Shown: in pieces, positions 21,445-59,397 of the stretch
Layout of the letters: every line of letters starts with the position of its first letter
How positions within the stretch are numbered: position 1 is the stretch's first letter
Assembly (NCBI RefSeq): GCF_020921035.1
Contig: NC_063154.1
Location: 1,426,001 to 1,490,000, forward strand
Direction: 5' to 3'
DNA from: Rhodamnia argentea
Taxonomy: Eukaryota; Streptophyta; Magnoliopsida; Myrtales; Myrtaceae
DNA: 64,000 nucleotides
Notes under the pieces: generated by a model
Seen by the model: only the letters and a program-made list of their open reading frames with translations
Told to the model about the DNA's origin: nothing
The model's database searches: none
Position numbers and translations under genes: made by a program

Positions 21445-24400
21445 TCAGGCTCCTGCTCCATTGCTTAAATGCAAGGTCATTTTGATGCTCATAGCTGCTA
21501 GCTCAGCAGCCAAATATCTGAAAACATAAGGCATCGCGACGGTTTCCATTCCTCTGCTTGTCTGGCACGAGTGACAGGTGACCTTTTTAGGAGCCCTAAG
21601 AGGCGGGAGCCCTCCAATCTCCCTGCCCACACGTCTTTGCGGCTGCACAAACTCCGTAGTGAGCATGCTCCCACAAAGGGAGCATACGTCAGCAATATGG
21701 TAATCAGAACACGTGTGTAACCTATCGTGCAATAAATACGCTGCCCCGTGTGCAAGCATGGAATCTCGTTCCATCTCCCCAAATCGGATGCCTCCACCTC
21801 GCTTTCTTCCTTTGATGGGCTGACGTGTGATCTGGTCTACCGTTCCAGTGGAGCGAACCTACAAATTAAGAGTAGAAATCCTTTCATTTAGCCCCAAAAG
21901 GGGAAAAAAGAAACATTAGTAGTAATCCTTGCTATCACAGTTGCGCATGGATATGAATGGCAGCTCTAGATGATAACATGATGATTGGACTTAAATTCTG
22001 ATTTAGCGACTCTTTCAAACAGATTTGTGCTCCAAATAAGCACATTCATGGATCAAGAGTTGCATTTCATGGATCCAAAGTACAAAGTTTTTGGTAATCT
22101 AAATGCACACTATTTCATGTCATGGTCAACAAGACGTTTTCCTTAACATATCAATGAGGATTTTCAAAAATTTGGATGCACTTCTTCTCTCATCCCCAAC
22201 CCCCCACCTAACACCCCCCAAAAAAAAAAAAAAGATAGAAAAAAAGGCGGTGAGCAAAAGATGTGCTGTCTTCAGAGCCGTGGTTCTAAAAGGTTAACAT
22301 GAATTGGTTATGCCTTACATATTTAATTGGGAAAAAATCCTAATTTCACGTGCGTACGCCAATATGGATGAAAAATTTATTCTGTAACGCAACTATGCGA
22401 GTAACTTCTCCCCCCCCGCCTCCCCCTTTTTTTCCCTCCGAAAACCCGACTCTCCTCCAAAATATAAAAACGAAAAGGAAAAGAAAGGTTTTGGGGGAAA
22501 TTTTACAGGTTTCCATGTCAGCGTCCTTCAATAAAGTAATTGTGTCAAGAAATCACCCATGACACGGAAGGAACAGAAAGAGATACTTACCTGAAACTTG
22601 TCCGAGACCATGTGCCTTAGTCGTTGATAATACACAGGCCCAATAAATATCTCACACGTGAGTTCCGTTCCATAGACACCACTGTATAGCACTTCCAGCC
22701 CATGGTAATTGAACCCTTTCTTCCTTAATCTGGTCCCAATTTGATCAACAAGATTTTCAGATTCAGATTTCTCTTCTCCATTAGTTTTCTTAGCAGAGCT
22801 AGCAAATGGAGTTGCATCGACAAATTCACCATCTAAGCTGCCCACCTGCCAGACAAATTACTGAATTCTCTAAGTTGTGTAGGTATATTTATACATATCT
22901 CGAACCTTAACCCTACTACTAAGCAATAAAATATAGCAACAAAGCGACTACTTCAGTTCAACCATGAAGGCAAAATATTGAATTCATTATAAAGTCCATC
23001 TAAGCTGTTCTACCATTAGTGGTACCTTGGCAGCAATCGACTCTAGAAGCATAGCAATTGTCATCCTGGAAGGAAATGCATGGGGGTTGATTATCAAGTC
23101 TGGACGCATTCCTGTTATTCCTGAAAAAGGCATATCCACATCTGGCCACAACTGTGAGCAAACACCTTTCTGCCCGTGCCTACTGCTAAATTTGTCACCA
23201 ATTACAGGATTCCTTGGATGCCGAAAACGTATATTTGCCTGCTCAGAAGGGGATAAGAAGAAAAGGTAAAATGAAAGACCATCCCACGCTTCACATCCAA
23301 AAGTTTGTTAAGGGGAAAAAGGGGAGAAACAGAGATAACAAGCAACCACAATTCATGCTGCATTGCAAAAGCATTATCAGGGGATGCAGCTAAATGTAAA
23401 GATGTCAATGCACAAAGAAGAACCTTCAAAAGGACTAGCTATTTCACAACAAGCCTATTCACTGGCATACACCATATGCGTGCGCAACTCTACCCTGCGA
23501 AAAAACCAATCCGACTCCAAATATCAAATGAAAATTTTAAAATCCAAGTAGGCCTCAATATCCACGAAATACCAACATAAACATGAGAGCCCGTAACAAA
23601 AGAGAACAGTTCCAAAACTCCTGGACGCTCTATCTCTAATTGAAATATAAGGTACACACTCAGTACTCAGACAGCCATCTTTCAGAATATCAAACAAAAT
23701 CACATTAAAAGTCCTCTTTTCCTTTATTTGAATTTTTGTAGTCCCCTATCTTTATCTCCACAATGACCTGTAATGTTTAAAAACAATCACAACATATTCT
23801 CCAATTCTAAAACCAACTTCGCGTTAAGTCAGAACCTGCCACAGACTAATGTATAACAGGAACTGGCGTGTGTCTGCTGACATTTTGTGCGGTAATGGTC
23901 ATAACTCCTTCAAGTCAGTCAGCAAGCAAAAGACATGGTTACACATTTCAGGTAGGTAGAAAGATTATGCACACTGCTACACCAAGAGAACTACACATGG
24001 CAGCAATAATAAGAACCGCTAATCTACACTGATAGGGCTCTCTCCAGATAGAGACTGAATTCCCAGATCTACGAGGTTGGGATAGAGAGAAAAGGAAATT
24101 GAAATATTCCAATATCTTGGGCACCCCTCATGGGATCTCTAGCACTACCTCCAGCGCCTTCCAAAAGATCAACTCCAGTAGAAAGTATGACAGTTCATCT
24201 GTTTAGCCGGGGAAATCAACGGGGAAGAAAATACTCAAAAAATTTGTTCATGTCCACTGACCTTTTGAAGACTTTTCTTGTTTTTCACATCAACAGCCAC
24301 ATAATCGACTATCACAGATTCCGACCCCTTGTGCAGTTGGTTTTTGGTAGTATTTGTGACCTCATTATATATACTGCAATATGGCTCGTTTGGATGTATC

Positions 24401-27400
24401 ATCTAAAAGAGAAATGTCAAAGAGTTTATCACTATGTAAGAAACAGAATTCGGTGGAGGAAAAGAGTAACGACAGCGTGAAATAGATAGTCAACCTGACC
24501 GATGTGTGGAAGTCCATCGGAATCAATCCAATGGTGAACTGATTTATCAGTGTTACTTCGCCTAAAAATCCTCTGTGCTCGATCAGATTTGCTGCTTTGC
24601 TCAGATAAGTCGATGGTCTCTGTCTGTAGCAAAATCACAATCAGTTCAAACAACAACCAGCCCATAAAGTCCCAAAAAAAAATATGAAATGCTTAAATCC
24701 AGTTGAAGAGATTGTAACAAATTGCATGCATTTAGCAATGTCTCAAACATGACCATCCTAAAAAAGGAAGAAACAAATCCATGGGACCACTCATATACAG
24801 AAGTAGAGAAAAAGACCAAAACCCGGCACGTTTATAAGGCAACTTATCCAGCTACCACCAGCAAAATTAAACACTTTAAAGTATTTCAAAATAACCAAGT
24901 GCTTCATCAACATTAAAATACTTCAAACACAGTAATCACATGCAATCGCACCAATAACCTGATATTTTAGATGGAAAGGGTGTCCAAGAACTGTTTAGGT
25001 TACTAGATTATACTTGACCATGTCTTACATGTTACTCTACCATGACTTCCATCTAATTACTCTTGTGTACTTTCAAATCTGCTGTGATGGGAACTAATTC
25101 AGTGGCCATGGCTATCAAAGGTCTGATGACTTGCTTTTTTACAAGATACCATGGAATTGATTTTGACATCTTTTAGATGTTGTGAAAGAGTAGTACAGCA
25201 TTTCAGGGGATTGAGTCATTTGATGCTGACGGCCAGCTAACCATTTAGTAAAGTTTTAGATGAGTTTACTCTTTGGATCTTTTGCATCAACGGTTAACAT
25301 GAATTGAGACATTTTGCTTAATTTGACACACATGCTGATGAGCTTTCATAGACGTGTTTCCTTCACAGGTCAAACCAACTAACAAACTTGCCCACATATA
25401 ACAAAGGTTGAATGGACCCACTCCACATGGAAAAGCTTTTCTCCATCTCAAAAGCTCGTGGAGAAAGAAAATTTGCCAACTGTTATACAGGGTATATACA
25501 TGTGCTCACATGCTAAACAGGGGAGAAGCAGCAAGAGCAATCGCAGGAGCCTGTTCTTCTGAAAATGGCTCAAGCAGAAAGAGAAAAACCTGGTATATTT
25601 GTCCATGGAACATTCCACGTTCTACAGATGACTTGTTAAGAATCATAGCATCCTCCATATCATACCTGATAGTATCACATAGTTAATATTCAAGGGCGAA
25701 AAAAAAAGTAGCAGATATATCTATCACCTTGAATTTTACAGAGTTAATTCCAAGCATTACCCTGAATAAGCCAGCACAGCAACAATTGCATTTGTCCCAG
25801 TTGGATACTCGTCTATGCAATACTTTGTATATGCACCTGTTCGTACTATGGGCGTTTGAGGAGTCTGCAGAGTCCCAAGGTACAGGTTGAGAAACTATAC
25901 TAAGAGAAATAACACAAGCAGCACCCACAGATGCAAACTAAAATTTTATTGATTGATTATAACAACAAATTAGCTGCACGTGCTGACTTCCAGATCAGAC
26001 TCAAACAAGTTCATGCACTCAATAAGTATAAAAGGCAATGGCCGTTGGTCATGGATGCCAATCAACAACTTAGCATGCAGAAATTCTGAACAGATGAGCC
26101 ATTTACCAAGTTCAGTACAAACAACCATTGAAAAAATTTGAAGAATCAGATATATACCTGAAGATGATACAATTTTTGGTCCGCACGGAAGTGAATGGCT
26201 TATGAAGAGAAAGCCATTGTTTGTTTTGCCATCTTAGATTACAATCAACAAAAGAAACAATGGAATATGAGCAAGATTTACTTAAGGGTCCCACTGACCA
26301 TCTTCGGGTCTTGAGAGAATTTAAAGAAACTTCTGAAAATAAGTGGAGAAATAATAAAAACCTGACACTGGTACATGTTTCGTGGGCTCTGATTATGATC
26401 TGACCATGGTGTGAGGTTAGCGACCACACTGAGCATTCCAGTTGGATGAATCTCTTCATGAGTAGCAGGAAATTCCTTTCTTCTTCCCCCATCTCCACCA
26501 TCAGGGCATCTAATTTCCATAAACACCTAAAAATTGCATAAACTGATTAAATACGACCACCTAAGAAAATCCAACAAAAGATTCATCCTGAAATAACCTG
26601 CTCAAATGGACCAATGAGTTCAATGTTTTGGCCTTCATCTACAGGAGCAGATATATTTCTAACTGGGCGCACAAATCTTGAAGGGTTTGTGAATAGATAA
26701 AGACCAGGATAGGCGCCACCAAAGCTCAAAGGAACATATCCTACCTCCAGATCATCGGGAATCTGCAATTTCGTGCACAACAATGAGGACAAACAAAAAA
26801 CTGGAACAGTGATGCAGTTGGAAACTACAAAAGCAGAAAGATTTGATGAAACACGAACCCCTGAAGTAGTTGACAGCTTTAATCTACGCAAATAAGAAAC
26901 AGCCTTTTCAACTTCAGCAGAGGGAATAGAGCCCACAACCCGCCCATCTAGTAGGACAGAGAGAACTTCAGGAGGGCCAGCTTGAAAGATTTTGGGGAGT
27001 GAAGGTGTCATTCCAACTTTAATCAGAACATTTAGAATTGAAGTTCCTATCTTGAAAAAATCTCGAACTTCTCCTTTTGAATCAAAAAACGATGTGATCC
27101 CTGAAAAAAGGAAGATACAATGCTTGTTGCCATCATATGAAAAATAAATTAGTCAAAGAAAACAGTTACAGAACTATATGGAACTCGGCCCTTTATATGC
27201 TAGTTGGAAGCGTACAAAAGCACTTCTTTTGTTTTAAAAGCGAAAAAAACAGAAATGTAGGCTCTCAGCAACTTCTTTTTTCTTTTTAAGATTTTACAAG
27301 TAAGATGGGGAAGGAGGAACTAATAAATTGAACCCAATACGTCTTGGAAATTGGTCAAAGGTGGACCACTATGGGGCCGCACCACGTTCCTGGTGATGAC

Positions 27401-30176
27401 TGTGGTTGCTAAAGGCACTTGTTTGAAAAACTGGTTAATGTCAATTTGTTAAGAAAACCGAATATTAATAACTTGTTCTGAAAGCTAGTCTTCCAGACAC
27501 TATAACAGCTTTCAAAACACAAGGCCAGAAAATTTTGTCATAAGAAATGATAAAATTCAAACCATTTATGGAATAATGAAATTCTTAATAGCAATCTGAA
27601 AAGGTATGTTAACTTACTACAGGTGCAAGTCATATGGTTAAGCAAACCACAAGGTTCCCCATCAGGAGTGTGTACAGGGCAAAGAAAACCCCAAGATCTG
27701 CAAAATGCCAAAAGATGAAGAGGGGGAAAGGGAGAGGGCATGGCAAGAGCAGTCAGAATCAGGAAGAAGAGCATAAAGTTAAGACACGGTCAAACTGATT
27801 ACCAAACAACACATACTCAGGTAACAACTTTCGAACACTCGTTGTCCGCAACCCCGCAAAGGATGCACCCCTATGTACAGCCCGAAAATGTGAAAGAAAA
27901 CGCAGGAAGTTTAGCCTCTCCGCTTGAACTGTATAGCCGGCCCTCTAATAAAGCAGATCCAGGATACAAACATTAGTCAAGCTCCACTATGACATAGCTA
28001 AAACATCACAAGAATATTAGACAAGGTTAAGTAAATTGACGTTGGAAATAAAGTGATAAGGTTAGTAACAAGATGCCGATCAAGGACAAATCCTTATATT
28101 ATTTCTTACCTATTTTCACATTTTACAACCTTAAGATAATAACAAATTGCCCCATGCTAGAAATTTCTGCAGAAGGTAATCGCCTCCAAATTCTCAGACT
28201 AGTAAGAGAGCACATACAACGAAAGCTAAAAAATATGTCAACATCTAGAAACAGTTCTTAAGGACTAAAAGGAAAAGAAAATTAATCCCCCCAAGTACGG
28301 AAAAAGGAGTGTGTTAGTTGGATGTGTGAGATGGATAGTCACTTACATAAGATGACTAGAGTAAACATATATGTTTAATCGGCCTAGAACTCATTATTTA
28401 AGCTTTAGATCAAACCGAATTCAATAAGTATGTTACCAGGGTTGTGTTTGGGCACTCTCTTGGGTTTTCAATGAAGTGTTGAGTTAACAATGATATCAAA
28501 GCCAATAGTTTGCCTAACCAGTCCCCAGCACTTATCAACATTTGAAGAAACCTAAGCAAGTGTCTTGCAAATCCTCACAGTTTCTCTTCAGAGGAGGAGA
28601 TACTCAAGCAAGGCGTGCACTGCAACGTGCAACAGATTCCTAGATTTGGTTTGCAGTCAAGAAGCCCATGTTGGATTATAGTCGAAGGCAGTTTCCTTGA
28701 TTGGTATTGCAACCCCTAGCAATGACTGGAAGATTCAGGTAGGTTGCCAAGCGCAGAAACAAAAGAAAAAAATCATTGTCAAGTAGAAACCGAGACTTCT
28801 GACAGCTCGTGTTATCTCCTACAAAATGGTAACATGTCCTAAGCAAAAAGAGACCCTTTCAGGTATGAAGAGTCAAATGAAAAACATTTTCCAAAATAAA
28901 CATGTTCTCTCTTTAATGATGAGGTTGACAACTTCTCTTCTGGAAACCTAAGAAGAATGAAGTCTTATCATATCTAAAAGGTTAAGAGGCAGAAGCTGGA
29001 GTAGCCCCCAAACATGCTTTTCCAGCTTAACACATTGAATTAGATGCTCTTCATTCTCACACTTTCTTCACTTCAGTTAGCTTCCGACTGGCTAGCTTGC
29101 CCAAGTACGAAGGGTATCGTACCCTCATGGTTGTGGAAGATCAATTTTCAAATAATGGGGGTCTTCATGCCAAAGCTTACTTTCCTTTGTGACTAATCGT
29201 TAAGATAGAACTCGGAAGTCAGCTTTCCTATTTCTAATCAGCCATAGTGAACCTATTATGCTTCCAGTGTATTCACGGGAACCATCATAGAACTCTAGAA
29301 GCAGTAGCACCCATCCTTAAAAACAACAAGGAACATGCAATAAGTTCTCACTCTAGTTAAAAGAAGACAATACACAAAAAGACCATGAAATTACTGCTGT
29401 TCCATCTCACCCAACAGTAAGAAGCACAAAAATATGGAAGGAAAGGCACTCATTTAAAGAGCAGAAAGAAGTTGAAAGTCTCATGTAGCTTCCGATTGAT
29501 TCAAGTCCATACCAAGACACGAGTCATAAAAAGTGCTTCAACAATTAACCCCGTAGTTTGATAAGAAGATACACTTCACCTCCCTCAGTATTTTGCTTGC
29601 ATGAAATATCATCAAAGAGAAGGCACTGACGAGAACTGTGAGATCATTTGTATTACAAGAATGCACTGTAGTGCTAGAAGTTATACACACCTGCTGCAAA
29701 TCCAGACCTGATTGTGTAACGAGCCTTCCAGTTTTTAACATATTTTCTATGGCTGAACCAATCTGCCTTCCGGGATTTTTGTCCATGACCTTCTTAACAT
29801 GTGCCACTACATGATCACATGTCAAAAAGCACTCATCAAAAACTCTAAAATAAACCAAAGAGGTAGGATAAACAAGCCAGACATAACAAACTTTAGCATG
29901 TTAACGGCAGTTATGAACCAGAAAAATCTCTCTTTCTTAGATACTGAAGCCAGAAAAGATCAACCAACACATGATTCCATCAGTCATTACAACAATAACT
30001 CCAACCCAGTTGAATAGCAGGGGGAGGGGCTAACATCTTGAGAAAAGATTAAAAGTAACAACTGAAGGTAATAATAACTTTTTCAACAATTAACACAATC
30101 AATAGCGCTCTGAAGAGAATATTCCCAGGGAAAATTGGTTCATTCCAACAACAGTAAGGGCCTTGGAAGAAACACA

Positions 30177-30222
<46 letters not shown>

Positions 30223-33200
30223 GAGTACAATAACATACAGCTAGAGAAATCAAAGTTTTTGCCTTTGTTCTTCATCTCGTCTTGAAGAAGCCTTTTTGCC
30301 TTTTGTAGCCAATCTTCTAGTTTGTCCTGGAGAAGTGACAAACAAGCAATGAAATGTATTGAGCTTCAGCTGCGTTGAGAAAGCACATTAAGTACTGAGA
30401 TATTATAATCAGTCCAATCATATATCCAGAGTGGAGGCTAAAAAATTCTACATTTAGCAAGATTTTAAGTGGATCAGGGGGCCGAAATGCAGATCAATAA
30501 TTCGACCACTAAAATGCTACATAGCACCTTACTTTTGTTAAAACAGCCACCTGTTGGTTTCTTGCTTCGCATACACGCTAAAGACCAAAAGGCCGCAATT
30601 TCAAAACCTCTTAGCAGCAAGCTGATTAACCTTTTTTTTTTCATGAAATAGCAAACACGACAAGGGTCACTGTAAAGTGACACTAGGCCCAAACCCTGAA
30701 AGCAGGGGACATATTGGGCCAAAGATAGTCGGAACCCTTAACTGAGCTGAGAGTTGAGCTGAGAGTTCACAGGTCTACCCATAGTCAAAACCTATTGAAA
30801 GTGGGTTTTGACCAAGGTGATCTGCATCAATGACCAGACTGGTATTAAGCTCGCTTATGGCAGAAACCATGATCCACAATCCCCGTTCATAAAAAATTAA
30901 CATTAAGTAGAACATAAACATATGTAATTTCCCATTTATCTGGTCCAAGTTTTAATCATCCTTCGGTAATGTGTATTAAAGTAACAAAAAGGAAAAAATA
31001 TCAAGAAGATACAATTCTTGTACCTTCAAATAAATTGTAATCAGGTGACCAGGCAGTAAAACTTCCTGATTTTGCAAAGAATCTGGGTTATCTGGAACTG
31101 AAGTCTGGTCGATGAGAGAAAAAAGTTTCTGCACCATAAAGCTGGATGAAGAATACAGACAATCAGAGGATAGCTATTAGAATGAATATCATGCTGCCAC
31201 TTCTTTACAACGAGGTAAGTTGGAAGGAAGCTAACATGAGAAGATTGAACTTGTCATAGTTGTTTTTAAGGTGGACAAAAATGTAGTCCCAAAGAACAGC
31301 ATCTGCAACCTGTGAAGGAAGAGAGAAATGAAGGCAAGAACTCCATCATTAAAGACACAAAAAGAATAACAATTTAATAAAGCAATGCATGCGATAAAAC
31401 TTACAGAGATGTAACTTTCATTCTCTAGACCCTCCATAACAGGTTGGAAATGCTCTCCTATATAAGGAAAAAACTTTGTTAGTCATACAAGAGATACTTA
31501 AGCAAAAGGAACAGTGAAAAATGTTAAAGAGTACCGATATGTTGCAGACATTGGTGTCGTGTAAAAAGAGCCAGATCTCGAAGTTCGTCAACTATAATCT
31601 TAGCCCTTTCACTCACAAGTTGAGTACCCACAACACCCCTCCCCCTCTCATATTTCTCACTATAGCAACTTGTCAAACTAGCATAAATTTCATGATCATT
31701 GGTGTCAATAAGTGCCTGTTGATAATAGTCAAGATCTCAATTAGCAATAACATGAGGAGAAGTACAGCAAAGATAGAGGAAAGGACATAGATGAACATAT
31801 ATAGCAGGCCAGCCAGAGTGGAGGCAAAAGTATTAATTTGCATAATATCTTCTTTAAAGCAGAAAAATGACCTCCACTACAGCATTGTCCTACAGTCTCC
31901 AAACCCTTGTTCCACAACCATCAAATAAGGGCAAAGAGAGACGGGTTAATAAAAACTTGATGGCAGAAGAAACCATCCATGGCTCTGATCCAAGACCTAA
32001 TGATTCATGACGGGGGAAATTTCTGGCAACCAGTGATCACTCCACAAGTTCATAGCAGATACAGGTATTCAAAGAGAATTTGAGGCGGCTAAATAAGATC
32101 TGTTATAAGTTATTGGAAGCATTGAGAAAGTACACAGGAGGAACCGTGCAAGAAAATCTTCCATCAAACTTCAACCAGATTTTTTAGGCACTGAACAAGA
32201 TTCGCTATAATTAAATGAAAGGCAATAACGTAAACAGGAGGAAGTAAATGAAAACTCCTTCCATGAAATTAGACAGACAAGGGAAGGAAGGAAGCTGAGC
32301 ACCTGACTGCCGCCTAAATAAGAATCTAAAAGTGAAAGGCTATCAACTAAGTTGTAAGGTCCATACAAATGTTCACTCTTCATGCAGCAGATAAGGAGGA
32401 AAAGCTTCTAACATCCAGAGTGAAGAGGAATTGCACTCATTGGAATTCCTACATATAAGACATGCACACAACGATCGTGCAAGGAGTAACACTTCCTTGT
32501 TTAGATGCATCTGGATTGCAGAATTTCCAGAGGAGGTGCCAACACTCATAAACAAGACGAAAGATCTAGGACAAAGCTTGACAGGTCAATTCACCATCGC
32601 ACATGATATGAATGAGACTGCCACTGTATATATAAATCATTTGCAACTAACAATAAAGAGATAAATTTCATGAACCAACGAGGAAGTAAAGAAGCATCAG
32701 CTATCCATTTGCAACATCCCACAAACAACAAAGATGATAAAACGGGGAAAAAACATTCTTATTGGAAGTTAACAATTACAGCACCTTCAAAACAACGCCA
32801 ACAGGAAGCAAATACTCTCTAGACTGAATCCTGCAAAAAGTCATTTAGAGCAACCAGTTAAAATCTCATATCAAAAGCAAAGGTTTAATTCACCAGTTAA
32901 AGAATCAGAATATCTTACCAAAATCCAATTCTCGCACTACCATTTTGAAGGTAATATAGTTTAACTGTCACAGAAGACTGGTCCTCTCTCACACACCTGA
33001 AAAGGGATTAAATCAGAATTGGAAACACCACAATCACCTGGGTGAATTAATCCTAGACAGCTGCAAGATCACAATAGAAGACAGAATTTGCAAACGCAAA
33101 ACCACTTTCGACTACACAAATTTTGCTAATGATTAAACAAAAGACTTAGTTTTCTCAACTCAAATTTGGGCATAAATTCAACAGGCAAAAAATTGTGCTA

Positions 33201-36200
33201 AGTAGTCATTCACACAACCCTCCTCTAACATCACTTTTCCACAATAGTCCCAAATCATAGCGATATTCCTAAAATAGCCACCATATTTGAGAGAGAAAGC
33301 AAAAGGTTTACGAAATCGGACCCTACATAAAGTCGTAATATATTTGCTTACAGCACGCTGGCCAATATAGCAAACCAAGTTACATTTTTAATCGCCATAT
33401 GAAAGATCACACTTGATCAATGGGACAAGAGAACTAGGCTTTCTAGAACATTAGAGAAGTCAGAACTTATGGCATCTTCAATTCCATAGGAAAAACAATA
33501 AGAATCTTGACTTGCCAACACGAGTTACAGGTAATCTGCTTATAAAATTTACTAAGAACATACGTGATTTAAACAACACTTATTCGGCAAAATGGTTAAT
33601 CATTGCCTAAAAACCTGTAAAGGCATTTAACAGCGATTCTCCAACATAACAGCCTATTGCACTGATAGTTACCAATTGCCATGCCATGGCATCCCGTATT
33701 ATTGTTAAACCCTTGCTTTTAGAGTCAAACAGCAGAAAATTTGTATGCAATTCTGTACAACTAAATGTACTACTTTAATGACTAATAGCAACTTCATGCA
33801 CGGTGTACAAAAATGAAACCTTATTACTACTGCTTTGTCTGTATATCCTTCACGTCGGTCACGAAATGAATTCCGCACCATGCTCATCGGCTGAAATATA
33901 AATTGGACTCAGATATTATCACAATAAAATAAACAGTCAATGGAAATGAAAAATTTTGAGTTTATAAGTAGACCGAAAGCTAAAAGATGGGTAAAACGAA
34001 CTTTACGAAAAGAAAAAGGTAAACAATGAAAGCTTGCAGAGTTCCATTTGTGTCCAATCCCCAACCAAAATATAGTATGTAATAAGGAGTGCTAGTGCAG
34101 ATGAACAGCAATTGGCAAAGGAACGTGCTTACATAGTTCCGCTTTGGCAATATCAGAAGACGAACCACTCTCTCTAGCCCATTCAAGATGAAATAGCTTC
34201 AAAAGAATAAATTTGTCAAAATTTGATAGAATGACTAAGCATAAGCATCTCGACAATACTTGCTGCTTTCGACAAGGAGAATTTCTTATTTCAGTCTGTG
34301 CTAAATTAGTTATTCAATGATGAATATAAATGATTCTGCTCGAGAAGACCATGCATAATCACAAGCACAATATTAAAGAAATGGCGGCACACCCACTATA
34401 CAAAACAACTAAAGAGATGTGCAGCTTCTACAATCACACTAAATAACGACAGTTACTTCAGGTGTGCATGTGTGTAGAGACGCCTTTCCAATAAAAAGCA
34501 AAAGAAGAGCTTGTCAAGGGGAAGAAAAAGAAGAGCTTGTCAATAAATGATAATTAATCTCTGTTTTAAATAAAGCAAAAGACAGTAGCATAAACAAATG
34601 AATCTCCATTTTCAATAAAGCAAAAGAAAATAGCATAAAATCTATCCAGTGGATATGCAATGCTCCAAACCTATACAGCAAATATTGATGCTCCATATCA
34701 TTAGTTAAAAAGATACAGAAAGAAAATAACTTACCCACCCATCTCAGAAGACTCCTCTTTGCAAGAAACCAACTTTTGCGGATCAGCGCCTCTCAAGTGG
34801 CACCTCTTTGACTGCAGCAAAATTGAATAATGAATCTTTGACCATTACTTAGCAACCATGGCAGTATGGATCTTTCGTAATCATTTCGAAATCAGAAGCC
34901 ACTTCAATCAACTCGAAGAAAGGCAGATTAATTCAATCACCATCTACCGATGCCGATCTTCTTCATCTCCCTTAACATGTATATAGTCTGTTACTTTTTC
35001 AGAATGGAAAGTATACATGTTGAAGTATTATCCCACATCGCTTGACAGTGGGTCCTAAGTGCCCTTTATATTTAAGTGGTCTCCCTCCACCTATAAGCTT
35101 AAACTTATGGGTTGGACTTTATATGATATCAGAGCCCGTGCTATCCCTTTCACGAATGTGCGTAGTCAAAATTCTACGTGCCGCTCGTAATTCGGCTTGC
35201 ACGTGAGTGGGGATGTTGAAATATTATCCCACATCGCTTGACAATGGATCCTAAGTGCTTTTTATATTAACGTGATCTTCCCCCACATGTAAGCTTAAGC
35301 CGTTGGATTGGATTTTATAACAATACACCTATTTATCCATAATTCAAAGCATTCTCACTGAGATTCAAAATAAAAGCAAGATTGTACAAGCTAAAGAAAA
35401 ATAACATCCAATATACAACAGACACAGCAACATGACAAGTGCCAATTTGAACGGTAGCATTGGAGATACTTAGATTAAGAACAACATGTTGGCATAATGG
35501 CTATAAGACATATCTAAAGAGATTGTACAGTCATTATTACACTGAGTAGTGTTCACCATACACTGGTATATCCTAGATTACATTGCATGGTAACGCGGAT
35601 AAGTTGAACCATTGCCTGCCTCTAATACAACACCGGAGGGTCAAAAGTCACAAAAGCAGGATAAAAGACATGAAAAATAGGAAATTATGGCACAACTTCA
35701 ATGTGGAGCTTAGCATGAAGCAAGATTAGGGAAATGCTGGTTCACCAATTTATTAGATAGAATTCTATAAGGGAAAAATTGCATGCAAGCCGCCTCACAA
35801 TTTAGAGAGGAGAAAAATATCAATCACTTAATCACAATATTAAGGACACATATTGAAATAATCTAGACTGTGCAAGAAAAGTAAGTGCAAGCCCAAATAA
35901 GCAAAAAAGGTAATTCAGACTGTCGTTGCTGAATTAGCTTCAAATCATCTAACTGTGAAACCTCCATTCATATAGAGAGCAGACTCTCTGGTTCAACAAC
36001 TGCTCTTAAGTAAGGCAGAATCGTATAAAGAAGGAAACTTAACTTTGGGAGATTTAATCTGTCTGGTGGCGGAAACAAAGTGCTACTGGATGAGTAAAAT
36101 CCCATTGTTATAGCAGCAGGTGGCATAATTGCCACTTAATTTCTTGTGTTGGAAATCTTATTTCAGCAAAGTAGCACCAGGAAGAAATTAACAGAGGAAA

Positions 36201-37377
36201 GCCCTTCTGAAATCGTGTTACCTTTAGAGAACTATTCATGGCTTTGAAACAATGTTGGGAGTATAAAAAGGACTCCAGTCAGTGAAAAAAGAAAAAGAAA
36301 AATGAAGGAAGCTTAGGATAAGAAGAATCTTGATAGGACCAGGATGACAAACTGACGCAACAGAAAACCCAAAACAGACCCACTACTAAATACTAATAAG
36401 AAACCAATAAATTCACTCTGCAAAAGTCGACCGAAATATGCGGCATAAACAGCTCGTGAACATAAAGGAAAAGACTATAGTGAACCGAACAACCAAATAA
36501 TGGTATTGGGAACGAAATAAAGACTAACCTTTAACATTATCGGAAGATGCCCGAAATTAAATTTCTCGCGTACGGCAGGTCCATTGTCGTATTGAAAACA
36601 GAGGTCAACCATGAACTTCCCTGAGTAGGAAATTTTAGCTTGCCTACACTATTTGAGATGCGAAACAAATAAGCCTAAGTCGACCCAACCATTGGCACAA
36701 GGATAAAATCAAATCAAGCGGGACTCGAATCAACTGCAGCAGTCTTACTTCGTACGGTAACAGATTATCGCGATTCGTCCTCAAAATGCCCTCCTTTTTA
36801 GGTTGATATACCTCATGACGCTCAAACGAGAGTGATTAACTTGTCAAGGATGAAACTTCTATGCTTTGTATAACATAATTGAATTGGATGCGCGCACCAA
36901 TTGCAGGCGAGAGAAAAAGGGATTGCCTTACCGTTCCAAAACTTGAACAAGAGACAGAAAACTTAAAAAATGGGACGAAGAATTGCTCCCACAGAGGTCA
37001 AAATAGGATATCAATTCCATGCAGCAAGAACGATATTCTAAGCTAATAACAACAATAAATGGGTGAAGAAAACAAAAAAAGAGCACTTTCAATTTCTATC
37101 GTGATTTCGTAAGAACTGGTGAGGCAAAAGGCCATCTTTTCCAGATTTTTCTCTGCCTCCAGGGTTACCCGAACGAAGCGAGGCAGCAATTCGAACAGAT
37201 AATAAGGATATTTCTAAGCGTCTTCTTGGAGAAGGGATCGACAATTTGGACGGGCTTGATGTTAGAAAGCATAGTCCCCAAACCGTGCTCCACGAGGTGG
37301 TCGAACGACTCTATGTGGTGCCTGACCAGCTCTCGCAACGCCTCGTACTCGGCCGCATCGGGCTTCGTCGCTCCCAT
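21445..37377 (-). CDS. NRPA2: RNA polymerase I second-largest subunit, with a nonsense codon in exon 20
   Basis: 27 exons (minus): 37377-37212, 36831-36749, 36648-36529, 34811-34735, 34196-34133, 33890-33820, 32996-32919, 32830-32785, 31715-31535, 31457-31405, 31309-31236, 31141-31024, 30326-30239, 29806-29691, 27944-27817, 27697-27618, 27100-26859, 26762-26598, 26526-26362, 26232-26158, 25864-25761, 25665-25590, 24623-24495, 24402-24262, 23238-23026, 22845-22591, 21858-21445. They join in one frame of 1,174 codons, close to Arabidopsis NRPA2. Family marks: [20 protein letters not shown], catalytic acidic pair in [14 protein letters not shown] (E769, D770), [20 protein letters not shown], and zinc ligands C1095, C1098, C1131, C1134. 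Known role: core of Pol I, transcribing 45S rDNA in the nucleolus. Two oddities: intron 1 is AT-AC, and codon 716 is TAA where relatives have Gln, ahead of the catalytic residues. The second could be an assembly error, a null allele or a decaying copy. Confidence 0.95.
26158..26232 (-). other. NRPA2: NRPA2 exon 20 carrying an in-frame TAA
   Basis: A 75-base exon with normal splice sites that encodes [10 protein letters not shown], then TAA (plus-strand 26200-26202), then [14 protein letters not shown]. Related proteins have Gln at the stop position (CAA to TAA would be one change). The exon is exactly 25 codons, so skipping it would keep the frame but remove conserved core residues, including the MAKQTM lysine. 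Confidence 0.9.
28312..28503 (+). mobile_element. LTR-like fragment with primer-binding-like site (fossil)
   Basis: A stretch of about 178 bases starting TGTTAG and ending TTAACA (28312-28489) is followed directly by ATGATATCAAAGCC, which resembles the tRNA-Met primer site of plant LTR retrotransposons. No second LTR or coding part was found, so this is at best an incomplete old remnant inside NRPA2 intron 14. Confidence 0.35.
30182..30217. repeat. (GA)n microsatellite in NRPA2 intron 13
   Basis: About 18 GA units; (CU)n in the transcript, starting at intron position +22 after the donor of exon 13 (30239). Confidence 0.95.
34556..34640. repeat. Imperfect tandem duplication in NRPA2 intron 3
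   Basis: Two units of about 40-45 bases (34556-34600 and 34601-34640) share AATAAAGCAAAAGA and TAGCATAAA. A shorter duplication of AAGAAGAGCTTGTCAA lies just upstream (34503-34542). Confidence 0.6.
35018..35322 (+). mobile_element. TRIM-type miniature LTR retrotransposon (fossil)
   Basis: Two LTR-like copies, 35018 to about 35124 and 35214-35322, both start with TGTTGAA and share ATTATCCCACATCGCTTGACA and a TAAGCTTAA block. Right after the first is TGATATCAGAGCCC, a primer-binding-like site; a purine-rich GAGTGGGGA precedes the second. The five-base direct repeat ATACA flanks the element (35013-35017 and 35323-35327). No protein is encoded, as expected for TRIMs. The LTRs differ at perhaps a tenth of positions, suggesting an old insertion. 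It lies in NRPA2 intron 3. Confidence 0.85.
36832..37211 (-). other. NRPA2: U12-type AT-AC intron (NRPA2 intron 1)
   Basis: Read on the minus strand, the 380-base intron begins ATATCCTTAT (first base 37211) and ends in AC (36833-36832). A perfect U12 branch element TCCTTGAC lies at 36850-36843, about 12 bases from the 3' end. No GT-AG pair joins exon 1 to exon 2 in frame, whereas the AT-AC pair gives [16 protein letters not shown], matching the family. Confidence 0.88.
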
Positions 37378-46113: not shown

Positions 46114-49100
46114 TTAGCTTTGAGATTCTGGTTTCTCAGATAACTTAGCAGTTGATGAAGACATACTGCTCCCATTCTGAAGGTAGAGGCTGTTAGCCAC
46201 CATAGAGTCACTAACAAGGCCAGCATCAACGTCATCGAAATTAAGTGTGCCTCTCACTTTTCGGGTACTGCAATAGGGTGAAAAGTAGGCAAGTTAACCA
46301 CCCAAACAAATATACCGGGGCTCACAATGGAATCGGAACCTACCCATTCAGGCGGCTGTTGATGGCAACAAGATCTTTGGAAGGGCTTTGATAGGCATGG
46401 GTGCTCTCTCCTACACAAGCATAATAGCTTTTCGAGCTATGAGAAATTGAAGCATCCATCTGCACACAATCAAGACAAAGCAGACCAATTAGAAGAAAAA
46501 AATACAACCGCAGTACCTGTCCATGTAAAAATGTTAAATCAAATCATGCATAACGATGTCAGCAATGTATATTACATAAGGAATTTCATGGTAAAATTTT
46601 TGAAAAAAACAGAAGAAGAGTTGTGGCAAAGAAGAAAAAGAAACTGCAAGAGAGAAGATGAGCACCTTAGATGATCTCAGTGGAGATACGTAGACATTGT
46701 GGGATGCAGATACTTTCTTAGGGGACATATCCGGGAGTGTTGGAAAAGGAGATATCTTAGGTGACCCGGGGCATTGAGCTGATTAGTAAGAGTTATAGCA
46801 ACAGAGAATCAGACTAAGGCTTGTGTGAAGACTGATTTACAAGTAATATGTAAGTCAAAAGCATACCATCATTTTTATTGCCAACTTCAGAAGCCCAGTT
46901 TGTTCTATTATTTGCTCCAGCAGGCCCAAGTTCAACGAGCAGTGGCTTCACAGAAGGAATGAATATTTCATTGTAGAAAGTGATAATATCCACATGCTCA
47001 TTCCCCGTTTTCTGTTGGCAAAATATTCAACACGTTAAGGCAATGTCTAGAAAACTGATGCCTAAGAGAGTAATATTTATTCAACATACCCCATTACGCC
47101 GGGCTGATGACCAATCAACAAACACACTGCGGAACACTTGGGGCTTGCACTGGGGTTGCTTCCTATAGTTGTGAATGATCTCCCTAAAGGTCAGGTTTGT
47201 TTGAGAGATCTTCAGGCCAAAAAGGGAAAGAGAAAAAAAGGGGCATGAATTAGTAACAAGGAAGAGAAAATTTAAATGCTCTGAATTGTCGCAGGAAACC
47301 AGACAAAATTCCTGAGTCCAAACCTTTGCAACACCGTAGAAACAGCAGAGTATTATTTGATCAATATGCCGATTAAAGAAGAGATTAGTTCGCTGACTGA
47401 GTATTTGCTGAAATAAGCAGTAAACGCTTTCCTTTATCTGCTGAGAGAGTTGTAGCCTTTCAAGCATGGCATTAATTCTGACAGCGGCGAGCTTAGTAAT
47501 CTGGACAATCCCACAAGTATGGAAAAAAAATTAAAAACACAATAAATGACAGTAACTGTAAAAGCCAAACTAGGACATATCTTTATTATTGCAACACAAC
47601 CAGACATGGAACTAACTAAAATTAATCTCTTGAGATGAGATCCCTCAGTATAGTCTTTGCGTTCAGAATTAGGATGATTGGAAAGACGTTGTCACGTTGC
47701 GTTGCTCTATTAATATCTCACATGGCATAAAAACTCTTAGTGAAGCCCCGATATGCCGTGTCGCTAGAAAATATAAATCCAAGCAGAGAAGGAAAAGGAA
47801 GGAAAGAGAAACAAGGGTGCAAGATCCATTATATTCACTTATAAACAAGTTTTCCTTTTCATGTAGAAGGATAGTTGCAATGACTTTTCAGATTCTCTAG
47901 GAGCCATTTGGAAAGCGGGTCCATTCTAGACGCTTTCCAGTACCTTGCTAAAGAATATGTTGATCCCGGTTTCCGCACAAGTTTCCCCTCCACCTCCTGG
48001 ATGTGGTCGAGTTGGACTGCAATATAGTGAAACACAGAGAACTTTTAGAACAGAAAAGATGTAATGTAGAGCAAAACCAAGCTTTAATTATGTACAGCCC
48101 CGTGATTCTACATTGAGAGTACCTGGCAAACGCAGACTGAAGTGGAGGTGGTGGTAACTTTGACTTGATATTGCTTAAGGCTAAAAGTCGATCTTTTACT
48201 GGTGAAGTGAATGAGTTTCTTTCAACTAATACGCTCCGGTAGTCTGTACAAACTCTCTTGGGAGACCTGATATCCCCGTTCTGACCTGAACAACAACGTG
48301 TGATATTGAGTTGGGCGAATCATGAACATCATTGCATCTAAACATTCAAAGCGAAGCAAATACGAAGAATCCATATATTGTATTGGTGACAGTTGGTGGA
48401 TTCTGATACACCCATAAAATCAGGAAAGTTCACACATTCAAACTGATGCTTAAAAGACAAGTGTAGAATTCATAAAGGTAAGGGAACCCTAAAAAGAAAG
48501 ACTTACCAGGAGAAGTCTCATGCTTTTGCAGCGGTGACTGAGGCAACCCACTGGAAGAAAAGTTAATATGCATGGCAATGGCATCCAAAGATGGCATTGG
48601 TTCTGGTAACAAGCCTAGCCGATTTATCTCTGGAGAGAAAGCCGGTCTTGCCACTACCAAGGAATTGTACATTGAGGAACCTCTCTCCCACACCATGCTC
48701 TCTAGAAGTCGCTCTTCTAATGTATTTAGATGCCTTCTTAATTCTCTTGGAAGAGTTTCCTCATGTCTAATAAAACTCTCTATCACCTTACTAAGATCAA
48801 AAGCTGTAATACCAGTTCGCTCTAGCACTGCAGGAAACAACATCGTCACAGTCTTATGCGTTGCAAGAACCAACTCAGCGGAACATGCAAGCATACATCT
48901 ATGAAACCTCTCATTTGTTAATAAAGAGGTCAAATTATTCGAATGTAAAACTTGTGCCTCTGCTCTACACATAGCTTCTAGAACCCGATAGTACAGCTTA
49001 AGGGCTTCCAGCCTTCGTTGCTCAGCCCACATATTGTCCATGAGATTAGCACTTTGCAGGCCTCCAGTTACAGTGCGCTCGCCGATAGCACTGTTTGGAA

Positions 49101-52020
49101 AGATAGCCTCCAAAATTATAAGGGCCCTACGTATCACGTCACTGCTCACATCCCTATCGCATGATGCTAGAAATCTCTGTAGGTCCATTGAAGGTTTTGA
49201 TGGGAGTGGAGACACAAAAGTCCGAAGCCACTTGGCAGTTGTCATAGCAGTGCTCACCGGAGTAGCAGTGAGCCTCAAATTACCACCACCAATTATACCA
49301 TTGACGTGAGATGCAGGAGAGCGGCTGGGAGAGAGTGGTCTTGTAATAGTCTTTGCAGGGGAGGCAAATGAGTCATATTTCCTCTACATGAAAATAGACA
49401 ATATGGTTACACGATTGCTAGAAGTGTTAATCAACTAGATAGCATGAAAAGGCAAACCTTGGCACCAGGCAGATTAATGGCGCCCCCAGACAAGCTTCCT
49501 GATCCAAGCAAGCTGTCCTCGTCATTTATAAACACCCTCTCGTCCAATTCATTCTTGTTACGAGTTGCATCTTCATAATCTTTTTCTAAAGCACTTAAAA
49601 CGGATGACAACGATGCTTCCTCCATGAGATCCTCAAAGTAGATCAGACCATCTGCATTTAAGAGGAAGAGAATCTCAACAACCAATGTACATGCGCTGTT
49701 ACATTATTATGCGCATTTACACTGAGTTCAGCATTTATATACAAGACATCATTTGACCTGTGTCAATATTCTCCAGATTCTCCGCTTTGCACTCTGAAGC
49801 TGGGCGCGGAGTTCTCCCCAAAATTTTTGCTATCACGTTATTGGTTTTTTCCAGTGTTCTCTTGATCTCATCTTCTGAGGTGTCATAAATATGACAGAGT
49901 GATCCAATTAGGTCAACCCCCTTCTCACTTCTCTTAACTGAATGACAGTGAAATTGATCAATCAGGACAAAAGCCAGGTTCGAGTTAGCAGGGAAAAGAA
50001 GGACCAGCTGAAAGAAATATGAGGATAAACGTTCTCAAAGCCCGACTGTGGACGAGTTTTCAAGAATTGATAATCAAAAGAGCAAGATGATCACCTAATC
50101 GTGACGAGTCAGAAATACTGAAATTTCTGAAGCGGGTAGGAAGATGTATTATCAGAATAGCCTGTAAAAAAATCATTTGAAAACTGATCATTATATATTC
50201 ATAGTACCAAAAATAAGTCTTAAAAACCAATACAACATGCCAAAAGTGCATATCCGTTCTTTTTGTCCTTTTAATAGCCATGTTTCAGAGGAGAAAACCG
50301 CACGTTTGACATGGTTATTGAGTGACTGCAAACACCTTAGGAAAATTGTTAAGTTCAACAAAGTAGTCCAGGAATGTAACTGACCAGTATAGAGACCAAA
50401 CCATTTGTGCTAGAAACAAGGTCCTTAAATCGGCTAAAGGCATGTATTCGAAGCGCCAAAAACAGCAACCAACCAAAACGTTGGTACATAGTCACTGGGT
50501 TAGAAGTGCTTGAAACGGCGGACTTCGTATTATCATTTCCATCTTTTATAAGGAAGAATTCGCCATATACACGTTTGTAGTACCTTGCAAAACAAAGATG
50601 AAGAAAACACTTGTCTATAAAACATGTCCACAATAGAAAAGCAGATGCGTTGAAGCATCATTTAAGAAACACAATGCAACTGCCACTACATTAAGGCGTT
50701 TGCACGCTCGATACTTGTAACTTTTGATGGAACATGTACACTGGATAATCAAATGCTATAATCGATCTAAATAATAGAAGAGGACAGGAAGTGGCGCTGG
50801 GTTTACATCAGATGATACGCATTTGATTGATTGAAGTAAAAAGAAGAGAAGGGGATGGAGGGAAATTTCTTTTCCTTGCACCCCTACCTAGAATATCATT
50901 TGAATCCCACTTTATAAACAAAACATTACCCATGGTTTAGTCAATTTCCCTTCATTTCATTCTCGACAAACAAACAGCAAGGAAAGTTTAATATGCTCTC
51001 CTCGCTTTATTTCTTCACTAGTCTTTAGTAACATGAGAGATACTCCTTTTTCCAATCACTAGTGACGTAAAAGGTACTCACTTGCTCAAAATGCATAAAT
51101 GCACAAAGTTTGTCTGCATCTCTCTGGCCTGATAGACAAAAGAATCAAAAATTGAAGCTTAGTCCGTCAAGGAGGCTAGGGGAAAATCGACACAAGAAAA
51201 AAAAATCGTCTGTCCAGGGCTCTAACTCTTAAAAAAGCCTTTCCATACAAGCATGCCATAAATGATAATCATTACCTCTAGCCTGCTCTCCCAGTTAGCA
51301 CCGTATATGCCACTTACGATTGGCCCAGCCTTGATAACAAATTGCGGAAGCTCTTTGAAAAAATCGATGATGCTGGTAAACCCACAGATAATTAGGAGAG
51401 GCAAAAAGTACACCACCCAAGAAAATGACATAACAAACTCTTTGGACCAGCCAAAATAAATGGTCCAGGTATAACATACTTAAGTTCCGTAACTCTCAAT
51501 ATCTGGCCCAAAGTGAACTCGTTCTCGTCAGATCCTTTTTGCTCATCCTCTGCTTTTCTCTCACTTAACCTTCTAACAGTGTACAATACAAAAGCGAACC
51601 AATAACGTTCTGCTTCTTCCACCTGATAACGAGATCACAGATCACCACAAGCTGGGACTTTGGACAATGAAAAGAAACTCAAGTTATCTGGGAAACGGTG
51701 ATGCATACCGTTCCACTACCAATAATGGACGCATTCGTCAGCAGCAAATGTTTGGTTTTTTTCAGCAGCTTCAAAGATTCTGCGCAATTTCTCTCATCCG
51801 AACCCAATTTACTCTGCTACAAAATCACAGTTAGCCCACAGAGCAATTCCGACGACACCTACAATTTTAATCGCAGCGAAAGAAAGCCAGATAAAGGACT
51901 AGGGTTCCGTCGCACGAGGACCTTGCAAAATTCCAAAAAGCGCATTTCGGCGGAATCGGTTTGAGCGCCATCGTTGCAGGGAGTGACGGGAGCTGGAATA
52001 TCAGGCTTCGTCTCCTCCAT
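46114..52020 (-). CDS. RBR1: Retinoblastoma-related protein (RBR)
   Basis: 18 exons (minus): 52020-51922, 51813-51709, 51622-51480, 51372-51276, 51128-51082, 50583-50385, 50161-50095, 49937-49758, 49651-49458, 49383-48507, 48285-48123, 48016-47944, 47500-47324, 47209-47090, 47011-46867, 46778-46666, 46459-46344, 46267-46114, giving 1,022 residues, the normal length. The N-terminal domain contains [20 protein letters not shown]. Pocket A (about 424-625) includes [17 protein letters not shown] and [20 protein letters not shown]. Pocket B (about 740-865) includes [16 protein letters not shown] and [19 protein letters not shown]. The tail has several S/T-P sites ([16 protein letters not shown]) expected to be CDK targets. 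Known role: represses E2F-DP factors at the G1/S transition and controls stem-cell divisions. The chosen start gives MEETKPD, like MEEVQPP in Arabidopsis; an in-frame ATG also lies at 52044. Intact. Confidence 0.97.
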
Positions 52021-56560: not shown

Positions 56561-57225
56561 TTCGCGGTGAGAATTGCAAGAACCTGTCAACACATTGGAC
56601 AAACACGACACAATCAGAATCCGAAAGACAAGTTCCCGAGGTTAGGGCAAGAAATTCAAGCTGGCGTCGTCTTCTGATCTCAACGACGCATGAAGCGAAG
56701 AATCGACGGACTTCTCACGAGAAAACTGTTTCGTCAAAGAAAATTGCAAGCTTTGTCGTGGGATTTGCCAGTACAGATCGCTATCAAATCGGAATATCCA
56801 GTTGAACGGTAGCTGATTTGGGCGAGATTGCCTCGCTACGAGCACCGACTACGGAACCGGAACACAAAAGCTTAATCGCAGTTGAGCTTCGTATACCACA
56901 CGTACCTGTTTCTTCTTCCTCTGCCCAGAAATCTCACGAACTCGCAGGCGGAAGTAACCTGTGAAGCTCGCGAGCTCTATTGGGCTAGGTTCAATGGAAG
57001 TTCAGCCCAAATTGACTGGAAAAATGCTCGTGTGGACCTGTCCAATGGAGGAATTCTCAGGCCCAGAAATCAGCACGGCCCAAGACTCTTCTTCTTCTTC
57101 TTCCTCTGCACTTGGTTTTTCCATCTGTTCCGACCTCCTTCAGGAATTCTATATGAATACTCCGCCCTCAACAGCACAGTGACCTTCATTCCGTGCGTCA
57201 ACCAAACTACTATATACTTCATGCA
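56561..57225. promoter_or_regulatory. Bidirectional promoter of CFAP20 and the PPR gene
   Basis: 665 bases separate the two start codons. Four site II motifs (TGGGCY or complement) cluster at 56981-56986, 57004-57009, 57060-57065 and 57077-57082. Such clusters are recognised by TCP factors and are common in promoters of mitochondrial and ribosomal protein genes. No TATA box was seen. Confidence 0.6.
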
Positions 57226-59397
57226 ATGACCACATCACTTTCTACTTCTCCGTTCAGACTCAACCATCAATCTGAGCTCGGGCGCGTTTGTTGGAGGCTC
57301 TTCTCGTCGGCGCCGCCAATTGCTCCTCAAAACGACATAGAACCTCAATTGAGATCACTCTGCGAGAGTCCCAATGCCCGATTTGCGGAGGCCGCCTCGC
57401 TCCTCCACCACGCAATCGATTCAGGTTCGCCTCCTTCCAGCTCGACCTGCAGCTACCTCGTCGATGCCCTGGTAAAGTCCAAGAACTACGATTTAGTGTT
57501 GGCGGTGTACGCGAAGATGGCGAATTTTAATATTTCTCCATATTTTAAGACGCTGAGAGGTGTGGTAGAGTCTTTTGTAGATGCAGGTAGGTTGGGGCTT
57601 GCGTGCGGGGTGGTGGGGTTGGTTCTGAAGCGTGGGTATAACATGAATGTGTTTGTTATGAATGTTATATTGAATGGACTGTGTAAAAAAGGCGAGGTCC
57701 AGGACGCAGTGGAGTTGTTTCGCAGAATGGAAAGGAATGGTGTGAAGCTGGATGCTTACAGTTATAATACACTTGTGAATGGACTGTGCAAGGCCAAGAA
57801 AGTTGAAGAAGCTCGGTTTTTGTTGGTTGAGATGAAGAGGTTGAACTGTTGCCCGAATGCGGTGACGTACGCCACTCTGATGGATGGTCTTTGCAAGGAA
57901 GGTAGACCGGAAGAGGCATTGAAGATAATGGTGGATATGAGGGAGAATGGCCTGGATGCAGATGTTTTTGTATATGGAGCTCTTATGAATGGATTCATTC
58001 AAGTGGGGAAGTTTGATCGAGGAAGTGAACTTTTCTACGAGATGTTGGAAAAAGGGATTTCTCCAAATGTCGTCACTTTCGGTTGTTTAGTGCACGGTCT
58101 TTCTAAGATGGGTAAGTGGGAAGAAGCCATAAATGTATTAGATGCTATGGCAGAACGTGGGAATTTTCCTGATGTTTTTGTTTATACCAGTTTGATTGAT
58201 GGCCTTTTCAAAGAAGGGAAAGTGAAAAAGGCTTTGGAGATGTTTGATTTAATGGTGAAAAAAGGTCAACAACCTAGTTCCGTTACATATAATGTCGTAA
58301 TTTATGGAATGTGCAAGGAAGGTCTGATTAGAGAGGCTTTTGAAGTTTTTGAAACTATGAGAATGAAAGGTGAAAAGCCCGATGTGCATACCTATAATTC
58401 GCTGCTGATGGGACTTTGCAATAAGGGCAGGGTTGATGAGGCATTGCATCTTTTCAATCTTATGGTGAAAGACAAGGACTATGCCAAGCCGGATATCATG
58501 ACATTCAACATGTTAATGCACGGACTTTGCAAAGAAAGACGTGTAGCTGAGGCCGAGAACATTTATAAGAAGATGGTTGCAAGGGGGGGTTTTGGTAATA
58601 TAATTACTCTTAACACTTTGCTCGGTGGGTATCTAAGTAAAGGAAATATAAAGCAGGCTATGGAAGTCTGGAAAAGAATCATTGAGTTGGGACTTGTGCC
58701 AAATCCAAGCACTTATAGCATCATGATAAATGCATTTTGCAAAGGAGGCATGGTGAGCATGGCAAAGGGGCTATTCAACAAAATGAGAGCTGGCAAGCCT
58801 GGTCCTACCTTGTCTGACTGTAATACCTTGCTGGGTCTTCTGTGCAAAGAGGATCAGTTGGAGCAAGCGAGGGCTTTATTTAAAGAAATAATAGAAAATG
58901 GTGAACCAGATCTGGTCACATTCAATACTATGATCAATGGAACCTTCAAAGCAAGAGACTTTCAAGCTGCCAAAGATTTACTCAAAGAAATGCTTAACCT
59001 GGGCTTGGCTCCTGATATCTTCACCTTTTCTACGCTGATAAACAGGTTGTCAAAAGCTGGACTGTTGGATGAAGCGAAAGATATCTATGATAGGATGATC
59101 TCTGTAGGCTATGCACCTGATTGTGTTGTGTATGATTCCTTGTTGAAAGGCTTTAGTTCAAATGGTGACGCCAAAGGAGTCATAAGTTTGCTGCATCAGA
59201 TGTCTGATCGGGATGTTGTTCTTGACAAAAAAATTATAGCTACCATTGTTTCTTGCCTATGTCAGAATTCCGGTGATCTTGACATCCTTGATCTACCAGA
59301 TTTTTCCGAATCAAAATCAAGTGCGGGCATGACATGCACAGAACTTTTGTCCAAATTTGGCAAGTCTCACCCTGATCTTCAAATAAGCATTGTATAA
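57226..59397 (+). CDS. P-class pentatricopeptide repeat protein, probably mitochondrial
   Basis: A single exon of 723 codons plus stop. The first ATG (57226) opens a Ser/Arg-rich, acid-poor N-terminus with CWRLFSSAPPI, which looks like a mitochondrial presequence with an Arg-X-Phe/Ser cleavage context. About 17 P-type repeats of 35 residues follow, from about residue 73 to 660 (typical units begin YSYNTLVNGLCK, VTYATLMDGLCKEG, HTYNSLLMGLCNKG). There is no E, DYW or SMR domain. Known family role: sequence-specific RNA binding in organelles, guiding processing, stability or translation. The closest protein I can recall is Arabidopsis At4g28010 (RPF5-type), but orthology is not shown. The long minus-strand open frame inside it (57493-58002) is a shadow of the repeats. 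It shares its upstream region with CFAP20. The gene looks intact. Confidence 0.93.
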   Translation: MTTSLSTSPFRLNHQSELGRVCWRLFSSAPPIAPQNDIEPQLRSLCESPNARFAEAASLLHHAIDSGSPPSSSTCSYLVDALVKSKNYDLVLAVYAKMANFNISPYFKTLRGVVESFVDAGRLGLACGVVGLVLKRGYNMNVFVMNVILNGLCKKGEVQDAVELFRRMERNGVKLDAYSYNTLVNGLCKAKKVEEARFLLVEMKRLNCCPNAVTYATLMDGLCKEGRPEEALKIMVDMRENGLDADVFVYGALMNGFIQVGKFDRGSELFYEMLEKGISPNVVTFGCLVHGLSKMGKWEEAINVLDAMAERGNFPDVFVYTSLIDGLFKEGKVKKALEMFDLMVKKGQQPSSVTYNVVIYGMCKEGLIREAFEVFETMRMKGEKPDVHTYNSLLMGLCNKGRVDEALHLFNLMVKDKDYAKPDIMTFNMLMHGLCKERRVAEAENIYKKMVARGGFGNIITLNTLLGGYLSKGNIKQAMEVWKRIIELGLVPNPSTYSIMINAFCKGGMVSMAKGLFNKMRAGKPGPTLSDCNTLLGLLCKEDQLEQARALFKEIIENGEPDLVTFNTMINGTFKARDFQAAKDLLKEMLNLGLAPDIFTFSTLINRLSKAGLLDEAKDIYDRMISVGYAPDCVVYDSLLKGFSSNGDAKGVISLLHQMSDRDVVLDKKIIATIVSCLCQNSGDLDILDLPDFSESKSSAGMTCTELLSKFGKSHPDLQISIV

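Follow-up and report, generated by a model that had tools for sequence, protein, structure and literature searches.

Does the gene for the second-largest subunit of RNA polymerase I in Rhodamnia argentea end in the middle of its reading frame in the living plant, or only in the assembled sequence? The question is raised by NRPA2, which our gene model and the best PDB matches place at 21445..37377 on the minus strand of the window, by which we mean the whole stretch of 64,000 nucleotides that was analysed (C5:1426001-1490000). The gene has 27 exons and a coding sequence of 3,522 nt. Exon ends were placed by eye, guided by splice signals, the reading frame and the Arabidopsis protein, giving a model predicted from sequence. 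The single frame of 27 exons and 1,174 codons described in the initial annotation could be rebuilt, and since that count includes the terminal TGA, the protein would have 1,173 residues. The splice sites had been called good, which holds for the 25 of 26 introns that are GT-AG and needs qualifying for intron 1 (36832..37211, minus strand, 380 nt), which is AT-AC. Its donor, ATATCCTT, is of the U12 type, and a branch-like TCCTTGAC ends 11 nt before the intron end, both read against the U12 consensus; in literature on U12 introns, NRPA2 appears in no title among the matches listed.

To place the gene among the RNA polymerase subunits, two segments were searched against the PDB. The segment encoded by exons 19-22 retrieved RPA2 (7ob9, 6.5e-49), RPA2 (7aoc, 2.9e-47) and RPA135 (4c2m, 3.3e-45), the next chain following at 1.8e-29, and the C-terminal segment likewise placed three RPA2/RPA135 chains on top (E 7.5e-89 to 1.6e-84; next 4.4e-62). 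We take 7ob9 to be the human, 7aoc the fission yeast and 4c2m the budding yeast subunit. In both segments searched the window gene is nearer to the Pol I subunits than to those of Pol II, III and IV/V, which supports the name NRPA2 at the level of sequence similarity. Similar to plant NRPA2 and to eukaryotic RPA2 (RPA135), it aligns gaplessly over exon 20 and the region of the acidic pair, but it differs from them by an internal TAA at codon 716.

This TAA, reported in the initial annotation, is confirmed on the minus strand at 26202-26200 (feature 26200..26202). It lies in exon 20 (26158..26232, minus strand; 75 nt, codons 706-730, phase 0/0), and it is the sole internal stop of the frame, which owing to it is not open over its full length, and the only lesion among the 1,173 codons ahead of the terminal stop and the 26 introns. 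That the frame stays open through the remaining 1,172 codons of the 27 exons exceeds chance, and a single stop in one gene among many would be unsurprising by itself. The acidic pair E769/D770, within the motif MEDAM, and the motifs CSLC and CHSC near the C-terminus, whose Cys pairs would bind zinc, are all encoded downstream of the stop, so the rebuilt gene bears out its earlier placement ahead of these features. The sequence has no homopolymer run at the TAA site, and the repeat listing has no tandem repeat there. Plant NRPA2 probably has Gln at codon 716, as the initial annotation states for relatives, and the equivalent residues in three aligned non-plant Pol I subunits are Leu, Thr and Val, making this a variable position. 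The exon as a whole aligns gaplessly to five homologues, the three Pol I subunits together with 36rp and 5x4z, which are presumably an archaeal and a Pol II subunit. Six residues (Met706, Lys708, Gln709, Arg721, Asp723 and Leu729) are invariant in all five, and 12 of the 25 are invariant in the Pol I rows alone.

We searched 346.66 Mb in 74 contigs with the NRPA2 protein, scoring 39 of the 46 first-look candidates and leaving 7 unscored, and 40 matches were listed. Those in the window span every exon but the short exon 8, which has no match of its own. Outside the window, identities of 60-74% occur among the matches listed only at C2:26660653-26662653, and elsewhere they reach at most 58% (C10). 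Neither this protein search (39 of 46 candidates scored) nor a DNA search with a 541-base stretch revealed a second complete NRPA2 in the 346.66 Mb; the stretch (26000-26540) occurs once in the genome, by a search that may overlook copies in which common words abound. The description of NRPA2 as usually single copy thus fits this assembly. No spare exon 20 was found either, codons 704-731 being touched, among the 40 matches listed, only by the gene itself and by a Pol IV/V-like paralogue on C3, which covers NRPA2 codons 666-836 at 29% identity. An alternative exon 20 was therefore rejected, the DNA stretch being found once and matching codons occurring only in the gene and in that paralogue. 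Passages of a study on Silene (PMC3704521) describe NRPA2 as a low-copy gene, present as one copy in two Silene transcriptomes, and also report that some Silene carry two divergent copies acquired via introgression.

The portion of the window gene running from within intron 24 to exon 27 (21466..23459, minus strand) is also present as a decayed copy within C2:26646767-26662647. This copy comprises only exons 25-27 and their introns, shares 206 of 292 residues with the window protein, and has an internal stop and a frameshift in exon 26. A 110-bp match to intron 24 sits ~13.7 kb upstream of the main part of the copy, against a spacing of 77 bp in the window, and by this comparison a later insertion of ~13.7 kb of DNA apparently divided the C2 copy. 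Since it has no exon 20, it gives no information on codon 716. It does permit a comparison of constraint: at the 86 residues that differ between the two, the outgroup residue is kept by the window copy at 28, by the C2 copy at 5 and by neither at 16, with 37 undecided, and the outgroup alignments, having been queried with the window protein, lean slightly towards the window copy, hardly enough to account for 28 versus 5. Past about codon 1100 the outgroup consists of the 7ob9 row alone, and such sites were counted as undecided. Where all three outgroup rows agree, the window copy keeps the outgroup residue at 23 sites and the C2 copy at 2. The window NRPA2 therefore appears, from these substitutions, to be the working copy and to have been under constraint in the past. 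The traits of a pseudogene, several lesions and lost constraint, are not seen in it, as it has one lesion and the 28 versus 5 sites in its favour.

More distant relatives were found at C10 (7.01 Mb), C3 (10.02 and 27.86 Mb) and C4 (17.95 Mb), which match NRPA2 piecewise at 24-64% identity, the value of 64% belonging to one 44-codon piece on C10. Judging from motifs, these places probably hold the second subunits of Pol III, Pol II and Pol IV/V, and with this piecewise identity and this reading we rejected them as paralogues standing in for NRPA2. The genome has 25 Rpb2_6 matches, of which 17 fall within the window, the C2 copy or one of these four places; the remaining 8 are absent from the 40 listed NRPA2 matches. 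By eye, C4:17948001-17958000 and C3:27855001-27865000 are alike, both looking NRPD2-like (Pol IV/V) in their motifs, and one of the two may be an additional NRPD2-like gene or else a pseudogene. An altered code or a generally poor sequence was also considered as a source of the stop and rejected, since the Pol II-like paralogue at C3:10.02 Mb has two apparent stops that both fall, as read by eye, at intron ends. As a small control, 10 ORFs of the window were scanned; Pfam domains were matched in 6, and three of those run uninterrupted between stops for 746, 319 and 317 codons. Among the neighbours of NRPA2 in the window we observed a retinoblastoma-related gene, with ORFs carrying RB_A and RB_B domains (47081-49383, minus strand), an open 746-codon ORF with PPR repeats (57157-59397, plus strand) and a 319-codon ORF with a DUF617 domain (61668-62627, plus strand).

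A gene released from constraint would not keep a single lesion for long. About 3.3% of the possible substitutions in the coding sequence yield a stop when transitions are weighted 2:1, and if indels occur at 1/10 the rate of substitutions, 9/10 of them are harmful and four splice bases count in each intron, an NRPA2 without constraint acquires on average one lesion per 0.0019 substitutions per site, and by 0.0088 the probability that it has more than one is 95%. Because lesions accumulate this quickly and the window NRPA2 has one, any real loss of function must be young. The conclusion of the initial annotation, that the stop is either an error or a change made very recently, is supported by the lack of any further lesion, the past constraint on this copy and the quick build-up that would be expected otherwise.

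Between these two options we lean, at somewhat better than even confidence, to the TAA being a consensus error in a gene that is otherwise single and working, and this is our leading explanation. Under it the window would hold the plant's single working NRPA2 gene, the TAA would be a one-base error in the consensus sequence, and the living plant would encode an ordinary full-length subunit at the codon 716 locus. Every cell needs this Pol I subunit, and a fixed null in its only copy is not viable; an error is favoured because this is the sole full copy found, it has one lesion, it was constrained in the past and Pol I is needed in every cell. A natural allele would equally appear as a single substitution, and this counts against the error reading, as does the lack of a homopolymer run or listed tandem repeat at the site. 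The sequenced plant could instead be heterozygous for a recessive null, with an intact and a nonsense allele of which the collapsed assembly displays the latter, and this we hold to be possible, at a probability clearly short of even. Its single clean lesion and the finding of only one haplotype for the stretch 26000-26540 agree with such heterozygosity, but Arabidopsis nrpa2 nulls reportedly fail through the female gametophyte, and such a failure would hold these alleles very rare; no literature was found on nrpa2 transmission via the female gametophyte. Since seven exon junctions lie downstream of the stop, a mutant mRNA would, by established knowledge, be a target of nonsense-mediated decay. 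By a hand estimate that draws on general mutation rates and the Arabidopsis nrpa2 gametophytic phenotype, the target for stops is ~116 site-equivalents (3.3% of 3,516 bases), giving a chance of an error stop in this gene of ~1e-3 at an assumed consensus substitution error of 1e-5. For a stop allele that segregates, the frequency expected at mutation-selection balance is ~1e-6 to 1e-3, depending on the degree to which heterozygotes and gametophytes expose it to selection, and under strong selection such a null should be rarer than an error. These estimates favour an error unless the quality of the assembly is very high. For the heterozygous null, a passage of a study on Ostrya (PMC6303402) reports that loss-of-function heterozygotes occur in tree populations. 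Similar to other premature stops in reference gene models, whether from consensus error or from heterozygous nonsense, the window NRPA2 has one lesion, and no other full copy of it was found.

The initial annotation had offered two further options, a freshly dead duplicate and a stop that the plant bypasses, and both have lost ground. If the window copy were freshly dead, its intact twin would have to be missing from the assembly or collapsed in it; one duplication of NRPA2 did happen, as the partial copy on C2 attests, and with 7 of the 46 first-look candidates unscored the search was short of exhaustive. The intact parent elsewhere that a pseudogene would need was not found, however, as no further full copy appeared in the 346.66 Mb (39 of 46 candidates scored), and the decayed member of the pair is the C2 copy, whereas the window copy retains the marks of past constraint; a dead duplicate is thus disfavoured in this assembly, and we consider it improbable. 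Alternatively, the stop could be real and fixed, and be bypassed by skipping of exon 20 or by translational read-through, which we regard as very improbable. Skipping would keep the frame, as was noted initially, removing 25 codons from an exon in phase 0/0, but as a rescue it is doubtful and disfavoured, since it would delete the six residues that are invariant in the five homologues compared, and the skipped product would, judging from the alignment, very probably be inactive; nor was another exon 20 found to replace it, only the 29% C3 paralogue spanning these codons. Read-through would gain from the variability of codon 716 (Leu, Thr and Val in the three non-plant Pol I rows), where many residues are perhaps tolerated, but the mRNA past the stop folds no better than shuffled sequence, and the read-through option is left without a supporting downstream structure: no stimulating stem was detected in the 117 nt starting at the stop (-15.7 versus a shuffle mean of -18.95 kcal/mol, z 0.99), with 168 of 200 shuffles folding at least as well. 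Some read-through genes have no stimulating structure. That the stop is fixed at a variable position, with a full-length enzyme made by read-through and rRNA synthesis reliant on translational recoding, we consider extremely unlikely.

Genome assemblies commonly include some genes with one such stop, and the window NRPA2 stood out owing to the easy recognition of the gene. The stop is ordinary in kind and most probably reflects a mistake in sequencing or a rare defective allele, not a new biological mechanism. It would be of general interest only if it were fixed and bypassed, for which we find no support here. If the stop is an error, as we favour, it would be a matter of annotation only, with a gene model that is shortened or flagged; if the plant is heterozygous for a null, it would contribute in a small way to genetic load, in a gene that is essential.
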